64,000 nt of DNA from Myxococcota bacterium (lineage in GTDB: Bacteria > Myxococcota_A > UBA796). Of this stretch, positions 817 through 8,315 are shown one piece after another (position 1 is the stretch's first letter; every line of letters begins with the position of its first letter). The position numbers were made by a program, and so were the translations under genes. A model generated the notes under the pieces. That model was not told the DNA's origin and did not search any database. It saw only the letters and a list, made by a program, of their open reading frames with translations. Where the stretch lies: positions 30,651 through 94,650 of the forward strand of contig JAQXDW010000028.1 in the NCBI GenBank assembly GCA_029251165.1. Reading direction: 5' to 3'.

Positions 817-3114
817 TCAATACCCCCGAAGCGCCGCCCAGCGATCACGGTGCCAGTCCGCCGTCCCGAAGGTCTCCGCAGCCACCCGTGCGCGCTTGAG
901 GAACATCCCGGCGTCGTGCTCGTCGGTCATGCCGATGCCGCCATGCAGCTGGATGGCCTCCAGCGCGGTGTGCTCGAACACCTCACTGCACCGCACCTTC
1001 GCCATCGAGGCATGCGCGGCGAGGTGCGCCGGCTCGGTGTCGGCGATCCGGGCCGCCGCGCCGACCGCTGCCCGGCACAGCTCGATGTCGATGTACAGCC
1101 GAGCCGCCCGGTGCTGGAGCGCCTGGAAGCTGCCGATGGGCCGCTTGAACTGCTGACGGGTCTTCAGGTAGCGCAGGGTCTCGGCAAAGATCGCCTGCAT
1201 TCCACCCAGCATCTCTGCGCACAGCGCGATCGTCGCGCGATCCCGTGCGGCGGGCAGCCGCCTGGCATCGACGGGCTGTCCGACAGCACCGCTCAGCACC
1301 ACCCGACCGCTGTCCCGGCCATCCAGCCGGCGCTCGGCGCGAACCGTGACCCCCTCGGCAGCCGCATCCACCAGCACCAGCACCGGCGCGCCGTCCGCAT
1401 CGATCGCGGTCACCAGAAACGCCGAGGCCGCCGCAGCATCGAGCACTGCGGACTTCTCACCGGTCAGGCTCAGCCCGCCGCTGGTCTCGACCGCAGCGGT
1501 CTCGTGGACGCCGCGTCGGGCGCGGGGCTCGTGGTCCGCCAGGGCGATGACCCTGCCCTCCACAATGGCCGCGAGCTGCGCGGGATCGTGGCCGAACACT
1601 TCGGTCGAGAGAGCGACGGAGAGGATGGGGCTCGGGGTGAGGCGTGCGCCGAGGTGCTCGCAGACCAGGGCCAGCTCCGTCATCCCCAGGCCAAACCCGC
1701 CAGCGTCCTCTCCGACCAACAGCGCCGACCATCCCAGCTCGACCATCTGCGCCCACAGCGCCGGGTCGTGCGGCGTTGCGGCGTCTCGCATGGCGCGCGC
1801 GAGCGCGATCGGGGCGCTGCTGGCGAGGAAGTCGCGCGCAGCACCTTGGATCATCTCCTGCTCTTCGGTCAGGAGGCTGGCGGCAGCCGGGGCACTTCCG
1901 GCGGGAGTGACCTTGCCGGAGGAGGACAGCCGGGGAAGTCCGAGGACAGTGGTGGCGATGATGTTGAGCTGCACCTCCGAGGTGCCGCCCTCGATGGTGT
2001 TTCCGCGAGAGCGCAGCCAGGTGCGCGCCAGCGCGTGGTCAGTGGGAGAATCACTCTCCCAGTAGAGCCCCTCCAAGCCGAGGATGCGCTGCGCGAGGGT
2101 CCAGCGCTCCTGGTTCAGCTCGGTGCCGAACACCTTGACGATGCTTGTCTCCGGACCGGGGCTTCCGCCGCGCTGGAGGGTCTCCCGGATCCGAGCGAGG
2201 GTGAGCCGGCCGATCCGGCGGGTGATCTCATGGTCCGCCACTGCTGCCCGAAGGATCGGATCGGCCAGCTTGCCGGAGGCGTCGACACCGATGCGGTCGA
2301 TGGCGTGGTCTCTCAGCGAGAAGCTGGCGAGGATCGTCGGCCGAGAGCCGCCGTTGATGATCGCCTCGCCGATCGAGTCGCGCTCGTGCCCGAGCAGCGC
2401 CCGGGCGACCTGCCAGCCGGCATTGATCTCGCCGACCACGTTGGCCACGGGCACCCGCACGTCGGTGAGGAAAGTCTCGCAGAACGGCGAGGAGCCGCTG
2501 ATCAGCTCGATGGGACGGACCTCAATGCCGGGAGTGGAGATGTCGATGAGCAGGAACGTGATGCCGCTGTGCTTGGTCGGTGCGGTGCGCACGAGGCAGA
2601 AGATCCAGTCGGCCTTGTCCGCGAAGCTCGTCCAGATCTTCTGTCCGTTGACCACGAAGTGATCGCCGTCCCGCTCCGCTCGGCACGCCAGGGCCGCCAG
2701 ATCCGAGCCCGCGCCCGGCTCGGAGTACCCCTGGCACCAGCGGACCTTGCCCCGCGCGATGGCTGTGAGGTGCCTCAGCTTTTGCGCCTCGTTGCCATAA
2801 TTGAGGATGATCGGCCCGATCATGGACAGCCCAAAGCCCACCAGCGGGCGGGGAATTCCGCGCTGGTTCAGCTCGGCGTTCAGGATCGCGCCCTGCTCAC
2901 GGGTCAGCCCGCCGCCGCCATACGCGACCGGCCAGGTCGGCGCGGTCCAGCCCCTCTGGAGCGCAGCCTCAAACCACGCGATGTGGTCGGCAGAGGAGTA
3001 GCCGGAGTCCTGACCGCCCCAGTGCCCCTGGAACGGTGAGGTCGCCGTGCCCCACAGCGCGCGCGGCGCATGCGCCTCGATGAATGCCACCACCTCAGCC
3101 CGGAAGTCGCTCAT
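817..3114 (-). CDS. Fused double acyl-CoA dehydrogenase (two ACAD domains)
   Basis: A 765-residue flavoprotein made of two complete acyl-CoA dehydrogenase domains, about 1-395 and 412-765. It should oxidise acyl-CoA to 2-enoyl-CoA using FAD. Domain 1 carries the FAD/substrate motif CQGYSEPGAGSDLAAL (127-142) and the catalytic-type Glu375 in NTIEGGTSEVQ. Domain 2 ends in the family signature LHGGIGMTDEHD but lacks an equivalent EGG motif, so it probably completes FAD sites without its own base. In actinobacterial steroid degradation such pairs (ChsE/FadE) are separate genes forming alpha2beta2 enzymes; here they are fused. The start MSDFRAEVV is preferred to an ORF running 80 codons further upstream because that extension overlaps the dehydrogenase upstream and looks non-coding. 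It is the last gene of a leftward operon, 13 nt after the KstD-like gene. Confidence 0.9.
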   Translation of the reverse strand: MSDFRAEVVAFIEAHAPRALWGTATSPFQGHWGGQDSGYSSADHIAWFEAALQRGWTAPTWPVAYGGGGLTREQGAILNAELNQRGIPRPLVGFGLSMIGPIILNYGNEAQKLRHLTAIARGKVRWCQGYSEPGAGSDLAALACRAERDGDHFVVNGQKIWTSFADKADWIFCLVRTAPTKHSGITFLLIDISTPGIEVRPIELISGSSPFCETFLTDVRVPVANVVGEINAGWQVARALLGHERDSIGEAIINGGSRPTILASFSLRDHAIDRIGVDASGKLADPILRAAVADHEITRRIGRLTLARIRETLQRGGSPGPETSIVKVFGTELNQERWTLAQRILGLEGLYWESDSPTDHALARTWLRSRGNTIEGGTSEVQLNIIATTVLGLPRLSSSGKVTPAGSAPAAASLLTEEQEMIQGAARDFLASSAPIALARAMRDAATPHDPALWAQMVELGWSALLVGEDAGGFGLGMTELALVCEHLGARLTPSPILSVALSTEVFGHDPAQLAAIVEGRVIALADHEPRARRGVHETAAVETSGGLSLTGEKSAVLDAAAASAFLVTAIDADGAPVLVLVDAAAEGVTVRAERRLDGRDSGRVVLSGAVGQPVDARRLPAARDRATIALCAEMLGGMQAIFAETLRYLKTRQQFKRPIGSFQALQHRAARLYIDIELCRAAVGAAARIADTEPAHLAAHASMAKVRCSEVFEHTALEAIQLHGGIGMTDEHDAGMFLKRARVAAETFGTADWHRDRWAALRGY

Positions 3115-3127
3115 GTCTGCTCTCTGT

Positions 3128-4798
3128 CTATGAATTGTCCGCTGCGGCCTCGGCAGCCAGGAAGCCAACCACCAGCGCCGGGCCGATGGTTCCCCCGGCG
3201 CCGGGGTAGGTCTTGCCCATGACCGGGGCGGCGCAGTTTCCGGCCGCGTACAGGCCGGGGATCGGGGCATCGGCGGCATCGAGCACGCGGCCTCGGGTGT
3301 CGACCACCAGGCCGCCCTTGGTGCCGAGATCGCCAGGATAGACCCGGACGGCATAGAAAGGCGGGGTCTCTAGGCGACCGAGGCAGGGGTTGGGGGTGAC
3401 CCGTGGATCGCCGTAGTAGCGATCCGACAGGCTCACGCCGCGACTGAAGTCCGTGTCGATGCCGGTGTCCGCCATGCCGTTGAACCGCTCGACGGTGCCC
3501 AGGAGGGCCTGAGCGGGCACCTCACAGGCCTCCGCGAGCCCAGCGAGGGTGTCCGACTTCTTGAGGAAGCCACGGATGAACTTCTTGCTGACCCGCTTGT
3601 CCGGCACGGCGTAGCCTGGCGCGAGCGGACCGACCGGGTAGTTGCGGCGGAAGGTGGCGTCGAAGACCAGCCATGCCGGTGCAGAGTCCGCAGCGTACAT
3701 GCCCTCCACCACGTCGAGGTAGGGAGCGGCCTCGTTGGTGAAGCGCTGCCCGGAGTCGTTGACCATCATCGAGTGCGGCAGGTTCTTCTCCACCACGATC
3801 ACCCAGGCCAGCTCCTGCCGGGGGATGCGAATGGTCGGGGTCCACCACGCCTTGTCCATGTGGACCAGCCGCCCCCCGGCAGACACGCCCATGCGGTGAC
3901 CGTCGCCGAGGCTGCGGAGGTTGCCGGCGCTCCACTCATCGGTGATCGGAGCGGGCTGGTGCGCTTCTCGCATCGCCTTGTTGCGAGAGAAGCCGCCGGC
4001 CGACAGCAGCACACCCTTGCGGGCACCGATGCGCAGTGTCTCGCCGTCTTTCTCGGCGACGACGCCAACCACTCGACCATCCTCGACGATGAGATCCGTC
4101 ACGGTAGTGGACAGGCTGAGCTCGACATTGCGGTCCTGCAGGGAGCGTCGCAGCCGGGCGATCAGGGCATTTCCAGCCGTCAGCCGGGGATCCCGCCCCC
4201 ACTTCCGGCGGGCCAGGAGGCTGAGGCCCGCCGACAGCAGGCGCTTGACCAGCAGCAGCTTGCTCTGCCAGGTGTTCGCCAGGAGCGTGTGGGCCTCGCG
4301 CGCGGTGAGTCCGAAGATGCCCATGACCTGCGACTGGGGATGTGGTGGGCGAATGCGGCGGAATTCCTCGCCGAGCTCGCGCCCATCAAACGGGGTGCAC
4401 TCCATCGAGCGCCCCCCCGGCTTGCCGCCCGCGACCTCCGGGTAGTAGTCGCAGTATTTCTCCAGCGCCTCGAACCGGACCGCAGTCTTCTCCTCCAGGT
4501 ACTCCACCATCCGGCGAGACTCGGTGACGTAGCCCCGGAGAATCTCATCGGGGGTGGAGTCGCCGACGATGTTGCGCAGGTAGGTCAGGGCGTCTTCGGG
4601 GCTGTCAGTGACCCCCCGGCCGGCCATGTGCGGGTTGTTCGGTACCCAGCAGACCCCACCAGACATCGCGGTAGAGCCGCCGTAGCAATCGGTGGCCTCT
4701 AAGAGAAGCGCCTCGAGTCCGAGGTCTGCGGCGCGGAGGCCAGCGGCCATTGCTGCAGCACCGCTGCCGATGGCGATGAAGTCGACAGTGCGGTCCAT
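3128..4798 (-). CDS. 3-ketosteroid delta1-dehydrogenase-like FAD enzyme (KstD family)
   Basis: A 556-residue FAD-binding-2 flavoprotein. The N-terminal Rossmann motif is GSGAAAMAAG (11-20), followed by YGGSTAMSGG. Residues that match the catalytic set described for KstD (Tyr119, Tyr318, Tyr487, Gly491 in Rhodococcus) are visible: DYYPE with Tyr118/119, the Tyr in RFTNEAAPY, and Tyr531/Gly535 in YPGAGGTIGP. That supports 1(2)-dehydrogenation of a 3-ketosteroid A ring, although a delta4-(5alpha)-dehydrogenase or another 3-keto substrate is possible. The ATG overlaps the upstream hydratase stop (TAATG), so translation is probably coupled. It lies between an enoyl-CoA hydratase and a fused acyl-CoA dehydrogenase and faces a Rieske oxygenase. 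This is the classic pairing of KstD with 9alpha-hydroxylase for opening ring B. Confidence 0.85.
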   Translation of the reverse strand: MDRTVDFIAIGSGAAAMAAGLRAADLGLEALLLEATDCYGGSTAMSGGVCWVPNNPHMAGRGVTDSPEDALTYLRNIVGDSTPDEILRGYVTESRRMVEYLEEKTAVRFEALEKYCDYYPEVAGGKPGGRSMECTPFDGRELGEEFRRIRPPHPQSQVMGIFGLTAREAHTLLANTWQSKLLLVKRLLSAGLSLLARRKWGRDPRLTAGNALIARLRRSLQDRNVELSLSTTVTDLIVEDGRVVGVVAEKDGETLRIGARKGVLLSAGGFSRNKAMREAHQPAPITDEWSAGNLRSLGDGHRMGVSAGGRLVHMDKAWWTPTIRIPRQELAWVIVVEKNLPHSMMVNDSGQRFTNEAAPYLDVVEGMYAADSAPAWLVFDATFRRNYPVGPLAPGYAVPDKRVSKKFIRGFLKKSDTLAGLAEACEVPAQALLGTVERFNGMADTGIDTDFSRGVSLSDRYYGDPRVTPNPCLGRLETPPFYAVRVYPGDLGTKGGLVVDTRGRVLDAADAPIPGLYAAGNCAAPVMGKTYPGAGGTIGPALVVGFLAAEAAADNS

Positions 4799-5592
4799 TA
4801 CTTCCCCTTGAACACCGGCTTGCGCTTCTCGGCGAAGGCGCGCGCGCCCTCCCGGGCATCTTCAGACTTGAACACCGGCCAGCCCAGCTTCAGCTCGTGG
4901 GCCAGCCCGTCCGCCTCAGTCATCTCGGCAGTCTCGACGATGGACTTCTTGATCGCCTGGACCGCCAGCGGGCCATTCCCGGCGATGATCTTCGCCAGAC
5001 GCTTCGCCTCGCTGAGGGCCTCTCCAGCATTCACCACCCGACCAATGAGCCCCATCTCCAGAGCCTCCTGGGCAGAGAACCGCTCGCCGAGCAGCAAGAC
5101 CTCCATCGCCTTTGTGAACGACACCTGGCGCTGGAGCCGCACCGTGGAGCCCCCCAGCGGGAACAGCCCGAGCCTCGCCTCGGTCAGCCCGAACTGCGCG
5201 CTGCGACCGGCGACCCGGATGTCAGTGGCCTGGAGGATCTCGGTCCCGCCAGCCAGGGCGAACCCCTCCACCGCCGCGATGATCGGCTTGGTGACGCGAT
5301 GCCCCCGCAGCATCGCCTTCCAGTGCAGCTCCGGATCGGCCTTGAACCGATTCTTCCAGGGGTCTTCTTCGTTGTCCTGGTGCATCATCTTGAGGTCTGA
5401 GCCCGCACAGAAGCTGCTGCCGGCACCAGTGAGGATGCAGACGAAGATCTCGGGATCGTCGTTGACCTGCTCCCAGGCATCCGCGAGGCGCGCCATCATC
5501 TCCAGCGACCAGGCGTTCCTCGCCTCAGGGCGGTTCATGGTGATGGTGAGGATGGATCCGTCGCGGTCGAGCAGCAGGTGGGGTTCAGCCAA
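4798..5592 (-). CDS. Enoyl-CoA hydratase/isomerase (crotonase family)
   Basis: A 264-residue crotonase. Oxyanion-hole regions are seen in GAGSSFCAGSDL and EGFALAGGTE. Both hydratase glutamates appear to be present: FGLTEARLGLFPLGG (E144-type) and KAMEVLLLG (E164-type), so hydration of 2-enoyl-CoA is likely rather than a side activity. I choose TTG at 5592 because it follows AGAGGA by 6 nt. The longer frame, opening with GTG at 5628, has no such site and lies inside the operator. It is the first gene of the leftward operon with the KstD-like and acyl-CoA dehydrogenase genes, transcribed from the divergent promoter shared with the Rieske gene. Role inferred: beta-oxidation of a steroid side chain or ring fragment. 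Confidence 0.88.
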   Translation of the reverse strand: MAEPHLLLDRDGSILTITMNRPEARNAWSLEMMARLADAWEQVNDDPEIFVCILTGAGSSFCAGSDLKMMHQDNEEDPWKNRFKADPELHWKAMLRGHRVTKPIIAAVEGFALAGGTEILQATDIRVAGRSAQFGLTEARLGLFPLGGSTVRLQRQVSFTKAMEVLLLGERFSAQEALEMGLIGRVVNAGEALSEAKRLAKIIAGNGPLAVQAIKKSIVETAEMTEADGLAHELKLGWPVFKSEDAREGARAFAEKRKPVFKGK

Positions 5593-5619
5593 GGCAAATC
5601 CTCTGGTTTCAGGTGGGAA

Positions 5620-5648
5620 GTAGAACACGTTTCACAACCGGTGGACAA
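5620..5648 (-). promoter_or_regulatory. Putative promoter of the hydratase-KstD-ACAD operon
   Basis: On the minus strand TTGTCC (5648-5643) and TTCTAC (5625-5620) are 17 nt apart, a plausible sigma-70 -35/-10 pair. The -10 lies inside the left KstR-like operator, so a bound repressor would block it. The elements are moderate matches only. Confidence 0.4.
5621..5634. promoter_or_regulatory. KstR-like operator, left copy
   Basis: TAGAACACGTTTCA fits the published KstR consensus TnnAACnnGTTnnA at every fixed position. With two flanking bases (5619-5634) it forms a perfect 16-bp inverted repeat with the copy at 5656-5671. It lies in the leader and -10 region of the leftward hydratase operon. KstR is the TetR-family repressor of cholesterol catabolism in mycobacteria and rhodococci; the cognate regulator is not in this window. 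Confidence 0.7.
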
Positions 5649-5670
5649 CCGAAAATGAAACGTGTTCTAC
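5642..5670 (+). promoter_or_regulatory. Putative promoter of the Rieske oxygenase gene
   Basis: TGGACA (5642-5647) and TTCTAC (5665-5670) are separated by 17 nt. The layout mirrors the minus-strand promoter, and the two -35 elements overlap. The -10 is covered by the right KstR-like operator. Confidence 0.4.
5656..5669. promoter_or_regulatory. KstR-like operator, right copy
   Basis: TGAAACGTGTTCTA fits TnnAACnnGTTnnA. It is the inverted partner of the 5621-5634 site, and the 16-bp repeats are separated by 21 bp. It lies 28 bp upstream of the Rieske start codon. Confidence 0.7.
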
Positions 5671-5697
5671 TCTGGGGCAATCGTGAGGAGAGCAAGC

Positions 5698-6633
5698 ATG
5701 AGCGATCGATTCCCGTTTCCTATTCCCAACGGCTGGTTTCAGGTGGAGTGGTCTCATGAGCTGAAGGCCGGAGACGTCAAGCCGCTGAAGTACTTCGGCA
5801 AGGACCTCGTGCTGTTTCGCGATGAAGACGGCGCTGCACACCTCCTCGACGCCTTCTGTCCGCACCTCGGGGCTCACCTCGGCCACGGCGGAACGGTGGA
5901 CGGTAAGAACATCGTCTGCCCGTTCCATGCTTGGAAATTCAACGGAAGCGGTACCTGCTCGGCGATCCCATATGCCGACAAGATCCCGAAGCAGGCAAAG
6001 CTGAAGGCATGGACCATCGTCGAGCGCAACGGAATGATTGTTGCTTGGCATCACGGCGACGGAGCACCGCCGCAGTGGGAGGTGCCGACGTTTCCTGAGC
6101 TTGGCGATTCGGACTGGAGCGATCCAGACCATCGGATGTGGACGGTCGGAACCTGCAACCAAGAGATGGCAGAGAACGCTGTGGACACCGCGCACTTCTT
6201 CTACCTGCACGGCACCGCAGAGATGCCGAAGTCCGAGGCGAAGATCATCGACCAGCACACCCTCCATGTTGTGGCGCAGACGGTGATGGCCACCAAGCAC
6301 GGTCCGGTCCCCGGTCAGATCGACGTGTACGAGTACGGCTTCGGAATCAACACGACGCGCTTCACCGGCCTCGTCGAGACGTTCCTGATGTCGAGCAACA
6401 CGCCGATCGATGAGAACTCGTGCGATCTGCGGTTCACGTTTGTGGTGAAGAAGTTCGGAAACAACGACATCACGCGCGGGATCGGTCGGGCATATGTGAA
6501 GGAGATTGCCCGGCAGCTGGAGCAGGACATCCCGGTCTGGGAGAACAAGAGGTACCTGCCGCGGCCGGTTCTGGTGGCGGAAGACGGGCCGATCGGGCTG
6601 TTCCGAACGTGGGCAAAGGGGCAGTACTCCTGA
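5698..6633 (+). CDS. Rieske non-haem iron oxygenase, KshA-like
   Basis: A 311-residue terminal oxygenase. The Rieske [2Fe-2S] ligands are Cys54-x-His56 and Cys74-x2-His77 (CPH...CPFHAW). The mononuclear iron site is N160-x2-D163-x2-H166-x4-H171 (ENAVDTAHFFYLHG), with a likely third ligand Asp in QDIPVWENK. The HFFYLH block is close to that of 3-ketosteroid 9alpha-hydroxylase oxygenase (KshA), but this protein is shorter than typical KshA, mainly in the C-terminal domain. ATG 5698 is used because GAGGAGA sits just upstream; the longer frame begins inside the operator. No ferredoxin reductase (KshB) is encoded nearby, so electrons must come from elsewhere. Divergent from the KstD operon and under a paired KstR-like site. 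Confidence 0.85.
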   Translation: MSDRFPFPIPNGWFQVEWSHELKAGDVKPLKYFGKDLVLFRDEDGAAHLLDAFCPHLGAHLGHGGTVDGKNIVCPFHAWKFNGSGTCSAIPYADKIPKQAKLKAWTIVERNGMIVAWHHGDGAPPQWEVPTFPELGDSDWSDPDHRMWTVGTCNQEMAENAVDTAHFFYLHGTAEMPKSEAKIIDQHTLHVVAQTVMATKHGPVPGQIDVYEYGFGINTTRFTGLVETFLMSSNTPIDENSCDLRFTFVVKKFGNNDITRGIGRAYVKEIARQLEQDIPVWENKRYLPRPVLVAEDGPIGLFRTWAKGQYS

Positions 6634-6730: not shown

Positions 6731-8257
6731 CTACATCAGGCGCTTCAGCGGTGTCTTCCAGATCCACTGGATCGCCTTCTTCAGGTGCCCCTCCTTCTCG
6801 TTGGTGTACGGGTACCAGACGAACTCTTCCTTCTGACCAAACCGATCCGCGATCACCGGCTTGGCATGGCAGAATCCCCGCAGCCCAATCTCTCCGTTCA
6901 CCCGTCCGACGCCGCTGTGCTTCACCCCACCAAACGGCAGCTCCAGCGCCCCGTACGTGATCGATGAGTCGTTGATGATCACCGCGCCGGCCTCCAGGCG
7001 CTCGGCCAGCCGCTCCCCCTTCGCGCGGTCCTTCGTCCACAGCGTGGCGCCGAGGCCGAACCGGGTGTCGTTCGCCATCGCGATCGCCTCATCCTCATCG
7101 GCGACCACCATCACCGGCAGGATCGGCCCGAACGTCTCCTCGGTCATCACCTTCATCTCATGGGTCACCCCCACCAGCAGCGTCGGCTGGAAGAAGTGCT
7201 CGCCGACCGCGCTCCGACCGCCCCCGACCAGCGCCTTCGCGCCCCTCGCGACGGCATCGTTGACGTGGTCCTCGACGATCTCAAGCTGCCGGGTCGAGAT
7301 GAACGGACCGATGTCGTACTCCCCCTCATGCCCGACCTTCAGCGCCGCGACCTTCTCCGTGAGCTTGCCGATGAATTCTTCTGCGACCGCCTCCACCACG
7401 TAGATGCGCTCGGTCGAGGAGCAGAACTGGCCGCCGTTCATCATGCCGCCGAACACCGCCCCGCCGACCGCGCGGTCGATGTCTGCGTCGGCACAGACCA
7501 CCATCGGATCCTTACCGCCGAGCTCCAGGGTGCAGGGGATGAGGTTGTGACCACACGCCGCGCCGACCTTGCGGCCGGTGGCCACGCTGCCGGTGAACGA
7601 GATCTTGTCGACCCCCGAGTCGATCAGCGCCGCGCCGGTCTCGCCATCCCCGAGGAGGATCTGGACCAGACCATCCGGCAGCCCAGCCTCGGCGAACAAC
7701 TCGCCGACCAAGACGCCAGAGTCCGGGGTGACCTCTGAGGGCTTGATGAGGACGGCGTTGCCGGCCATTAGCGCCTGGACGGTGGGGTTGAGCGAGAGGA
7801 TGAACGGACCGTTCCAGGGGGTGATGACCCCGACAACGCCCAGCGGAGTGAAGGTGAGCTTCGCCCGCTTCATGCGGAGGAGGTGGAGCCCGACCGCGCG
7901 CGGACGCAGCATGCGCTCAGCCCGACGGGAGTAGAAGTTCAGCGAGTCGCAGGCGGCGAAGATCTCCATCATCGTCGTCTCCATCCGGCTGCGACCGGTC
8001 TCGGCGACGATGCGATCGATGAAGGCTTCCTGCTTCTCGATCAGGATCGCGAGGGCGCGCTGGAGGATGGCGGTGCGCTCAGGGAATGAAGTCTTCGCCC
8101 AGGCTGCCTGCGCTGTCCGCGCACGCTCCATCGCAACAGCGACGTCCGCAGCAGTGGTGACGTCGAACTCCTTGAGCACCCGGTGGCTGACCGGACAGCG
8201 GGTTCTGAGGCGGCGGTGGCCGCTCACGGACGGTTCAACGGACTCGACGAATGCCAC
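6731..8257 (-). CDS. NAD(P)-dependent aldehyde dehydrogenase
   Basis: A 508-residue aldehyde dehydrogenase superfamily enzyme that oxidises an aldehyde to the acid. The general-base Glu245 lies in LELGGKD and the nucleophile Cys279 in NGGQFCSST; the cofactor motif FTGSVATGR is intact. The start is GTG 8257, preceded by AGGAG at 7 nt. The gene stands alone and leftward, converging on the Rieske gene. A KstR-like palindrome lies 37 bp upstream, so I infer that it serves the same steroid pathway, perhaps oxidising an aldehyde made during side-chain or ring cleavage. The exact substrate cannot be read from sequence. Confidence 0.9.
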   Translation of the reverse strand: MAFVESVEPSVSGHRRLRTRCPVSHRVLKEFDVTTAADVAVAMERARTAQAAWAKTSFPERTAILQRALAILIEKQEAFIDRIVAETGRSRMETTMMEIFAACDSLNFYSRRAERMLRPRAVGLHLLRMKRAKLTFTPLGVVGVITPWNGPFILSLNPTVQALMAGNAVLIKPSEVTPDSGVLVGELFAEAGLPDGLVQILLGDGETGAALIDSGVDKISFTGSVATGRKVGAACGHNLIPCTLELGGKDPMVVCADADIDRAVGGAVFGGMMNGGQFCSSTERIYVVEAVAEEFIGKLTEKVAALKVGHEGEYDIGPFISTRQLEIVEDHVNDAVARGAKALVGGGRSAVGEHFFQPTLLVGVTHEMKVMTEETFGPILPVMVVADEDEAIAMANDTRFGLGATLWTKDRAKGERLAERLEAGAVIINDSSITYGALELPFGGVKHSGVGRVNGEIGLRGFCHAKPVIADRFGQKEEFVWYPYTNEKEGHLKKAIQWIWKTPLKRLM

Positions 8258-8293: not shown

Positions 8294-8315
8294 AAACTGA
8301 AACGTGTTTCAGTTT
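8294..8315. promoter_or_regulatory. KstR-like operator upstream of the aldehyde dehydrogenase
   Basis: Perfect 10-bp arms AAACTGAAAC and GTTTCAGTTT flank a GT centre. The core TGAAACGTGTTTCA fits TnnAACnnGTTnnA. This is the most symmetric of the three sites found at 5.6 and 8.3 kb. Confidence 0.72.

Follow-up and report, generated by a model that had tools for sequence, protein, structure and literature searches.

A 64,000-nucleotide stretch of DNA from a Myxococcota bacterium (GenBank assembly GCA_029251165.1, contig JAQXDW010000028.1, C2 in our numbering; the whole stretch is called the window below) carries a perfect inverted repeat at positions 5619-5671, between divergent genes for an EchA19-like enoyl-CoA hydratase and a KshA-like Rieske oxygenase. 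The locus raises the question of which regulator recognizes this repeat and how much of the genome it governs. The textbook switch for cholesterol use in bacteria is KstR, described in actinobacteria. The repeat very probably represents two KstR-type operators, to which a KstR-like TetR repressor encoded on contig C91 of the same genome is predicted to bind, blocking transcription until its release by a steroid-CoA. One repressor dimer would occupy each operator and likely block RNA polymerase at each arm of the predicted divergent promoter, and a steroid-CoA intermediate would serve as the releasing ligand. On sequence grounds, a conserved KstR-type regulon with merged wiring is considered real in Myxococcota-type genomes.

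The 16-bp arms, AGTAGAACACGTTTCA (5619-5634) and TGAAACGTGTTCTACT (5656-5671), match as reverse complements at every base and are separated by 21 bp. Each contains one site of the type TnnAACnnGTTnnA, namely TAGAACACGTTTCA (5621-5634) facing the leftward gene and TGAAACGTGTTCTA (5656-5669) facing the rightward gene, so that a preliminary description of the window, which had claimed a perfect repeat holding two KstR-like operators, was right to the base in both coordinates and sequence. A third site, TGAAACGTGTTTCA (8298-8311), is located upstream of the next gene, encoding an aldehyde dehydrogenase. Being a perfect inverted repeat that separates divergent genes, the element might also be a palindrome arisen by chance, the hairpin of a terminator or a repetitive sequence, but this is almost vanishingly improbable. 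Each half is a conserved 14-bp word, the window has three sites where 0.09 were expected, and this number was reached in 0 of 100 shuffles; moreover, a terminator is not needed between divergent genes. In the flanks of the 14-bp word, A at -2 and T at +15 were common, giving a symmetric 18-bp operator.

The motif was then counted over the 8.0-Mb genome, with the reversed pattern as the control. The tight form TRRAACRYGTTYYA gave 18 matches against 0 in the control, and the loose pattern gave 42 against 16. When two mismatches were allowed, 151 sites were found against 206, and weaker sites are therefore inseparable from noise. The 18 tight sites fell in 14 intergenic regions, 17 of them preceding genes of catabolic type and one preceding the TetR gene on C91. 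The preliminary description had proposed a genome-wide search for the motif, and as in a KstR regulon it was indeed found upstream of many other steroid-type genes, well above chance. Genes were assigned for the 18 tight sites and for one (C147:83209) of the 42 loose ones; another loose site, on C45, falls within an open reading frame (ORF), and C23:36708, one mismatch beyond the loose pattern, was counted as the partner of C23:36731.

The predicted regulon extends beyond one operon. On C2, besides the window pair, tight sites precede thiolase-FadB-like genes (C2:4099), a short-chain dehydrogenase/reductase gene (C2:26930), a gene for FadD3 (C2:30600; 724.2 bits, cut-off 657) and the aldehyde dehydrogenase gene (C2:38948, corresponding to window position 8298). 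On C105, they precede a gene for a KstD-like flavoprotein (C105:15668), EchA20-IpdAB-like genes (C105:26321) and an IpdC-like gene with an enoyl-CoA hydratase gene (C105:29539), and three of them (C105:23299, 23316 and 23465) separate an amidohydrolase-HsaA-HsaC-HsaD-like run from a second KshA-like gene. Further tight sites were located upstream of genes for a nitronate-monooxygenase-like protein (C23:36731), a GMC oxidoreductase (C27:19691), the TetR protein (C91:4001) and an acyl-CoA ligase (C147:83280), while the loose site C147:83209 faces an SCP2-ChsH-thiolase-ligase run. A cytochrome P450 gene on C49 has two tight sites upstream (C49:28990 and 29013); the nearest solved structures of its product are the steroid C26-monooxygenase 8a6w (E 4e-87) and CYP142 (2xkr, E 5e-87), followed by a chain named CYP125MRCA (E 1e-85), with other CYP125 chains at about 1e-55.

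Several of the other gene names denote resemblance scoring below family cut-offs. HsaA (405.0 bits, cut-off 450) and HsaD (185.6, cut-off 400) were best families yet under cut-off, HsaC (218.9, cut-off 450) came second to biphenyl-2,3-diol 1,2-dioxygenase (274.6, cut-off 366), and IpdB was named by position because it had no family match. As many enzyme assignments are best-family matches below equivalog cut-offs, and as mycobacterial KstR may control other lipid genes too, according to the accessible part of PMC6678751, the regulon could serve bile acids, hopanoids or methyl-branched lipids rather than sterols. We regard this as unlikely, since sites accompany the KshA-, KstD-, HsaA/C/D-, FadD3-, IpdA- and CYP142-like genes alike, which together form a 9,10-seco signature. 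Sterol biosynthesis was considered as a context and rejected: the squalene epoxidase family PF08491 had no match in the genome (assembly 90.75% complete), although it matched in the control genomes of E. coli and Caulobacter and is thus a broad family.

The preliminary description had also suggested looking for a TetR gene bearing the motif too, and such a gene was found on C91, its product being KstR-like by sequence and by predicted fold. It is the sole strong match to the KstR family in the genome. KstR was its best family, by 65 bits, and in Pfam it matched TetR_N (48.7 bits, cut-off 24) and the ligand domain TetR_C_20 (32.3 bits, cut-off 26.5), which we take to be a mark of KstR. The modelled structure has the KstR fold and fits KstR best. 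The gene also bears its own site, TGGAACACGTTTCA at C91:4001, as a KstR regulon includes the promoter region of the repressor itself. A contaminating contig as the source of the gene was tried and rejected: the 4-mer correlation between C91 and the window was 0.942, within the 0.933-0.974 of other stretches of this genome (n=13), while the loci of ten relatives, shorter at 6.6 kb, gave 0.70-0.85. With 6.6-kb pieces, C91 scored 0.919 and 0.873 against 0.910-0.961 for the pieces of the window itself, and 4-mer composition agreed across the regulon contigs.

The distribution of repressor and sites was compared in an order-level set of 58 genomes including this one, with the repressor called at E 1e-15 or better. 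The repressor was found in 8 of the 58. At least two tight sites were present in seven of the eight repressor genomes but in only two of the 50 others (p 9e-7), a cut-off chosen after the counts were seen; a cut-off of six or more gave p 2e-4. In a scan of named records, 47 of the 80 best of 124 repressor loci had a tight site within -200 to +40 of the repressor match, against 0 when the pattern was reversed and 1 when a downstream window was used, and in 13 of these 80 loci a KshA-like gene directly followed the repressor gene. Four loci (L048, L055, L098 and L103) show the order EchA19-like gene, sites, repressor-KshA, which is the divergent slot of the window with the repressor gene inside; in the window that gene is missing from the slot.

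The sites might instead be operators for another TetR-type protein, the C91 protein being a bystander relative. Two genomes fit such an explanation in having many sites without a detectable KstR-like gene, G006 (26 sites, 97% complete) and G041 (6 sites, 85% complete), and a more sensitive alignment search gave none in either. G022, G032 and G027 have the TetR protein with just 3, 2 and 1 sites, respectively, and no KshA match at E 1e-60. We nevertheless judge this explanation very unlikely: the C91 protein is without a strong competitor in the genome and bears a site itself, the repressor occupies the window-type locus in the four loci above, and its presence tracks the number of sites.

The wiring itself was conserved in three relatives. 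Of the site regions fetched, 12 of 16 in G035, 6 of 8 in G010 and 6 of 7 in G006 contained regulon homologues, which comprised KstD, HsaA/C, HsaD, EchA19, FadD3, Ech-FadE-FadA6, FadA-FadB, P450, SCP2-ChsH-thiolase, EchA20-IpdAB, IpdC and KshA. A homologue started directly downstream of 22 of 30 sites in G035, 11 of 14 in G010 and 12 of 18 in G006, in total 45 of the 62 examined, which were all sites of the first two genomes and 18 of the 26 of the third. Neither a regulon homologue nor a tight site was present in 20 control regions, each 8 kb long, from other parts of these genomes. The concern of the preliminary description that homologous clusters might lack the motif was thus not borne out.

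The case for KstR-type control by the C91 protein has to be weighed against a number of observations, to which the two genomes with sites and no detectable repressor belong. In G027 the single tight site equals the control count, 33 of the 80 repressor loci (best of 124) had no tight site nearby, and in the three relatives 17 of the 62 examined sites lacked a homologue directly downstream and 7 of the 31 site regions lacked any. Within the genome itself, the C91 protein scored 104.8 bits against the cut-off of 280 for the curated KstR family (NCBIfam NF033703), and it is therefore called KstR-like and not filed as KstR. Its site TGGAACACGTTTCA lies 61 bp upstream of the first ATG and departs from the commonest form. 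The targets include general-type enzymes (short-chain dehydrogenase/reductase, aldehyde dehydrogenase, GMC oxidoreductase and nitronate monooxygenase). The assembly, besides being fragmented, has 7.75% contamination, and the 4-mer agreement of C91 is still compatible with a contig from a close relative.

A further point on that side concerns the promoter. The preliminary description placed a symmetric divergent promoter on the repeat, and its general layout held: the -35-like hexamers TGGACA (5642-5647, plus strand) and TTGTCC (5643-5648, minus strand) share 5 bp at the centre, and on both sides a spacer of 18 leads to the -10-like TCTACT (5666-5671, plus strand; 5619-5624, minus strand) over the gene-proximal, outer end of the operator. 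The hexamers are imperfect, TCTACT being weak with 4 of the 6 bases of TATAAT. The promoter is the weaker half of the observation, as the -35 signal was not enriched in this genome: of 20 oriented sites, just the two of the window pair had a TTGACA-like hexamer (at least 4 of 6 bases) starting at -14, and on the mirror side other offsets scored 2 or 3 of 20. In relatives a similar offset, within 1 bp, was enriched, at -13 from the operator in 11 of the 47 repressor loci (mirror side 1) and at -14 in 8 of the 45 regulon sites (mirror side 1). These offsets are peaks among 25 tried, and a few sites were counted in two sets (L103 belongs to the L168 genome and L047 to the L158 genome). Such an offset puts the -10 over the gene-proximal half of the operator, in line with mycobacterial KstR as described in the accessible part of PMC1995591. 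A sigma-54 promoter was dismissed by inspection, the sites of relatives having TGGC-like bases upstream but no GC at -12.

Instead of being independent blocks, the two operators might act as one unit, through a loop or through dimers lying side by side. Preferred spacings do recur among the 27 distinct site pairs closer than 60 bp (start to start, 20-23 bp in 16 and 34-36 bp in 7), also before single genes such as that of the P450, and 20-23 bp is about two helix turns, which would place both dimers on the same face. The spacing in the window, however, is 35 bp or about 3.3 turns, placing the dimers on different faces, each operator there has a predicted promoter and a gene of its own, and many regulon genes have a single site. 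Joint action therefore appears rather unlikely to us, and two separate operators are preferred. The sites also varied in sequence: repressor-proximal ends were mostly GTTTCA, whereas catabolic sites mostly had GTTCTA on the gene side, and the central two bases were mostly GT or AC here and mostly AT in G035, G010 and G006. Graded affinities are a possible meaning of these differences.

For mycobacteria and other actinobacteria, the accessible part of Kendall 2007 (PMC1995591) describes a KstR (Rv3574) regulon that shares with the present one the 14-bp palindrome TnnAACnnGTTnnA, the site at the promoter of the self-repressing regulator, its partial overlap with the -10, the occurrence of two sites within a single intergenic region (there Rv3570c/Rv3571), and steroid side-chain and ring A/B targets. 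The present system differs in its phylum, in the low family score of its repressor, in the repressor gene not standing beside the window operators, and in ring-C/D-type genes bearing the same motif. According to the available sections of Kendall 2010 (PMC3068626) and Crowe 2017 (PMC5380842), fadD3, ipdAB, ipdC, echA20 and fadA6 are targets of KstR2; here the same kind of genes (fadD3-, echA20-ipdAB- and ipdC-like) have the KstR-type motif directly upstream. Control of the KstR2 type was examined and rejected, as its motif AnCAAGnnCTTGnT was not enriched (6 genome matches against 3 in the reversed control) and all matches fell on C25, C30, C70, C111, C125 and C134, with none on C2, C105, C91, C49, C147, C23 or C27. 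The portion of PMC6678751 available to us covers TesR and other proteobacterial regulators of the same kind of 9,10-seco pathway in Gram-negative hosts; those regulators are different, and no KstR-type palindrome is described in that portion.

The novelty would thus lie in the lineage and in the merged regulon, with KstR2-kind genes predicted under KstR-type sites. We lean toward a whole-pathway cholesterol switch in Myxococcota, under which non-actinobacterial aerobic sterol degraders would use a single KstR-type repressor for the entry step at the side chain (CYP142-type P450) as well as for rings A/B and C/D, whereas mycobacteria split the pathway halves between KstR and KstR2. This raises the question of whether the mycobacterial two-repressor arrangement split from one or the Myxococcota one merged. 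The 14-bp word alone could serve as a search key to flag steroid-type genes in uncultured genomes.

The host was claimed in the preliminary description to be apparently not an actinobacterium, with which the homologues agree: 64 of the 80 repressor loci (best of 124) are in records titled Myxococcota, Deltaproteobacteria or subgroups, Nannocystis included, and a 94%-identical repressor is annotated as Myxococcota. In 2018, Myxococcota were counted as Deltaproteobacteria. The present claim is therefore one of a new lineage with actinobacterial-type control and not a contradiction of Holert 2018 (PMC5790920), which in its accessible part reports degraders only among Actinobacteria and Proteobacteria, cites earlier data suggesting sterol degradation by Actinobacteria only, and does not contain the words Deltaproteobacteria and Myxococc in the available main text. 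Sterolibacterium is an oxygen-independent sterol degrader outside Actinobacteria, as stated in the part of PMC11061730 at hand. In the accessible portion of the open-licence literature, no description of KstR or its operator in Myxococcota was found.

Some repressor loci showed features of their own. In six Nannocystis loci (L054, L077, L081, L085, L086 and L091), tight sites were located about 1.45-1.5 kb upstream of the TetR gene and not at its promoter; five of these loci have them in pairs spaced by 20 bp. The genome 336R_metabinner_62 (L066 and L075) has two KstR-like repressors, each beside an operator and a KshA-like gene, and duplicated regulons may therefore exist. A KstR-like TetR gene with a nearby tight site also occurred in records titled Candidatus Dadabacteria, Rhodobacterales and Spirochaeta (L064, L046 and L108), in L046 between the TetR and KshA genes; these are either misnamed bins or cases of transfer to other phyla. 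The same type of TetR was present in a metagenome-assembled genome record titled Klebsiella pneumoniae isolate LH-05nov19-24 (L094; also G022:C5), a title that is probably a mislabel.

The window genes around the operators resemble genes of steroid degradation. The KshA-like protein, of the 3-ketosteroid 9alpha-hydroxylase type (5698-6633, plus strand; ATG start, GAGGAG at 5685-5690), is placed in the KshA family by 127.5 bits for KshA_C (cut-off 23.3), and its top three matches among PDB sequences are KshA, the best being 4qdc (E 8e-50). On the minus strand, the EchA19-like protein (4798-5592, probable TTG start) scored 380.6 bits for PRK07799, over the cut-off of 316, and 361.6 for EchA19, under the cut-off of 400. 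It is followed by a KstD-like 3-oxosteroid 1-dehydrogenase (3128-4798, minus strand; NCBIfam 594.7 bits, under the cut-off of 789; PDB 7p18, E 1e-141) and a fused two-domain acyl-CoA dehydrogenase (817-3111, minus strand; start uncertain, the ORF extending to 3354), whose N-terminal half resembles 4x28/6wy9 and C-terminal half 6wy8_A. The halves of this ORF (817-3354) match Tcur3483 and Tcur3481, different chains of one solved complex, 6wy8. Beyond the KshA-like gene, the aldehyde dehydrogenase gene (6731-8257, minus strand, GTG start) has its KstR-type site 40 bp upstream, and an aldehyde dehydrogenase gene after KshA was also found in five related loci (L046, L047, L048, L055 and L103).
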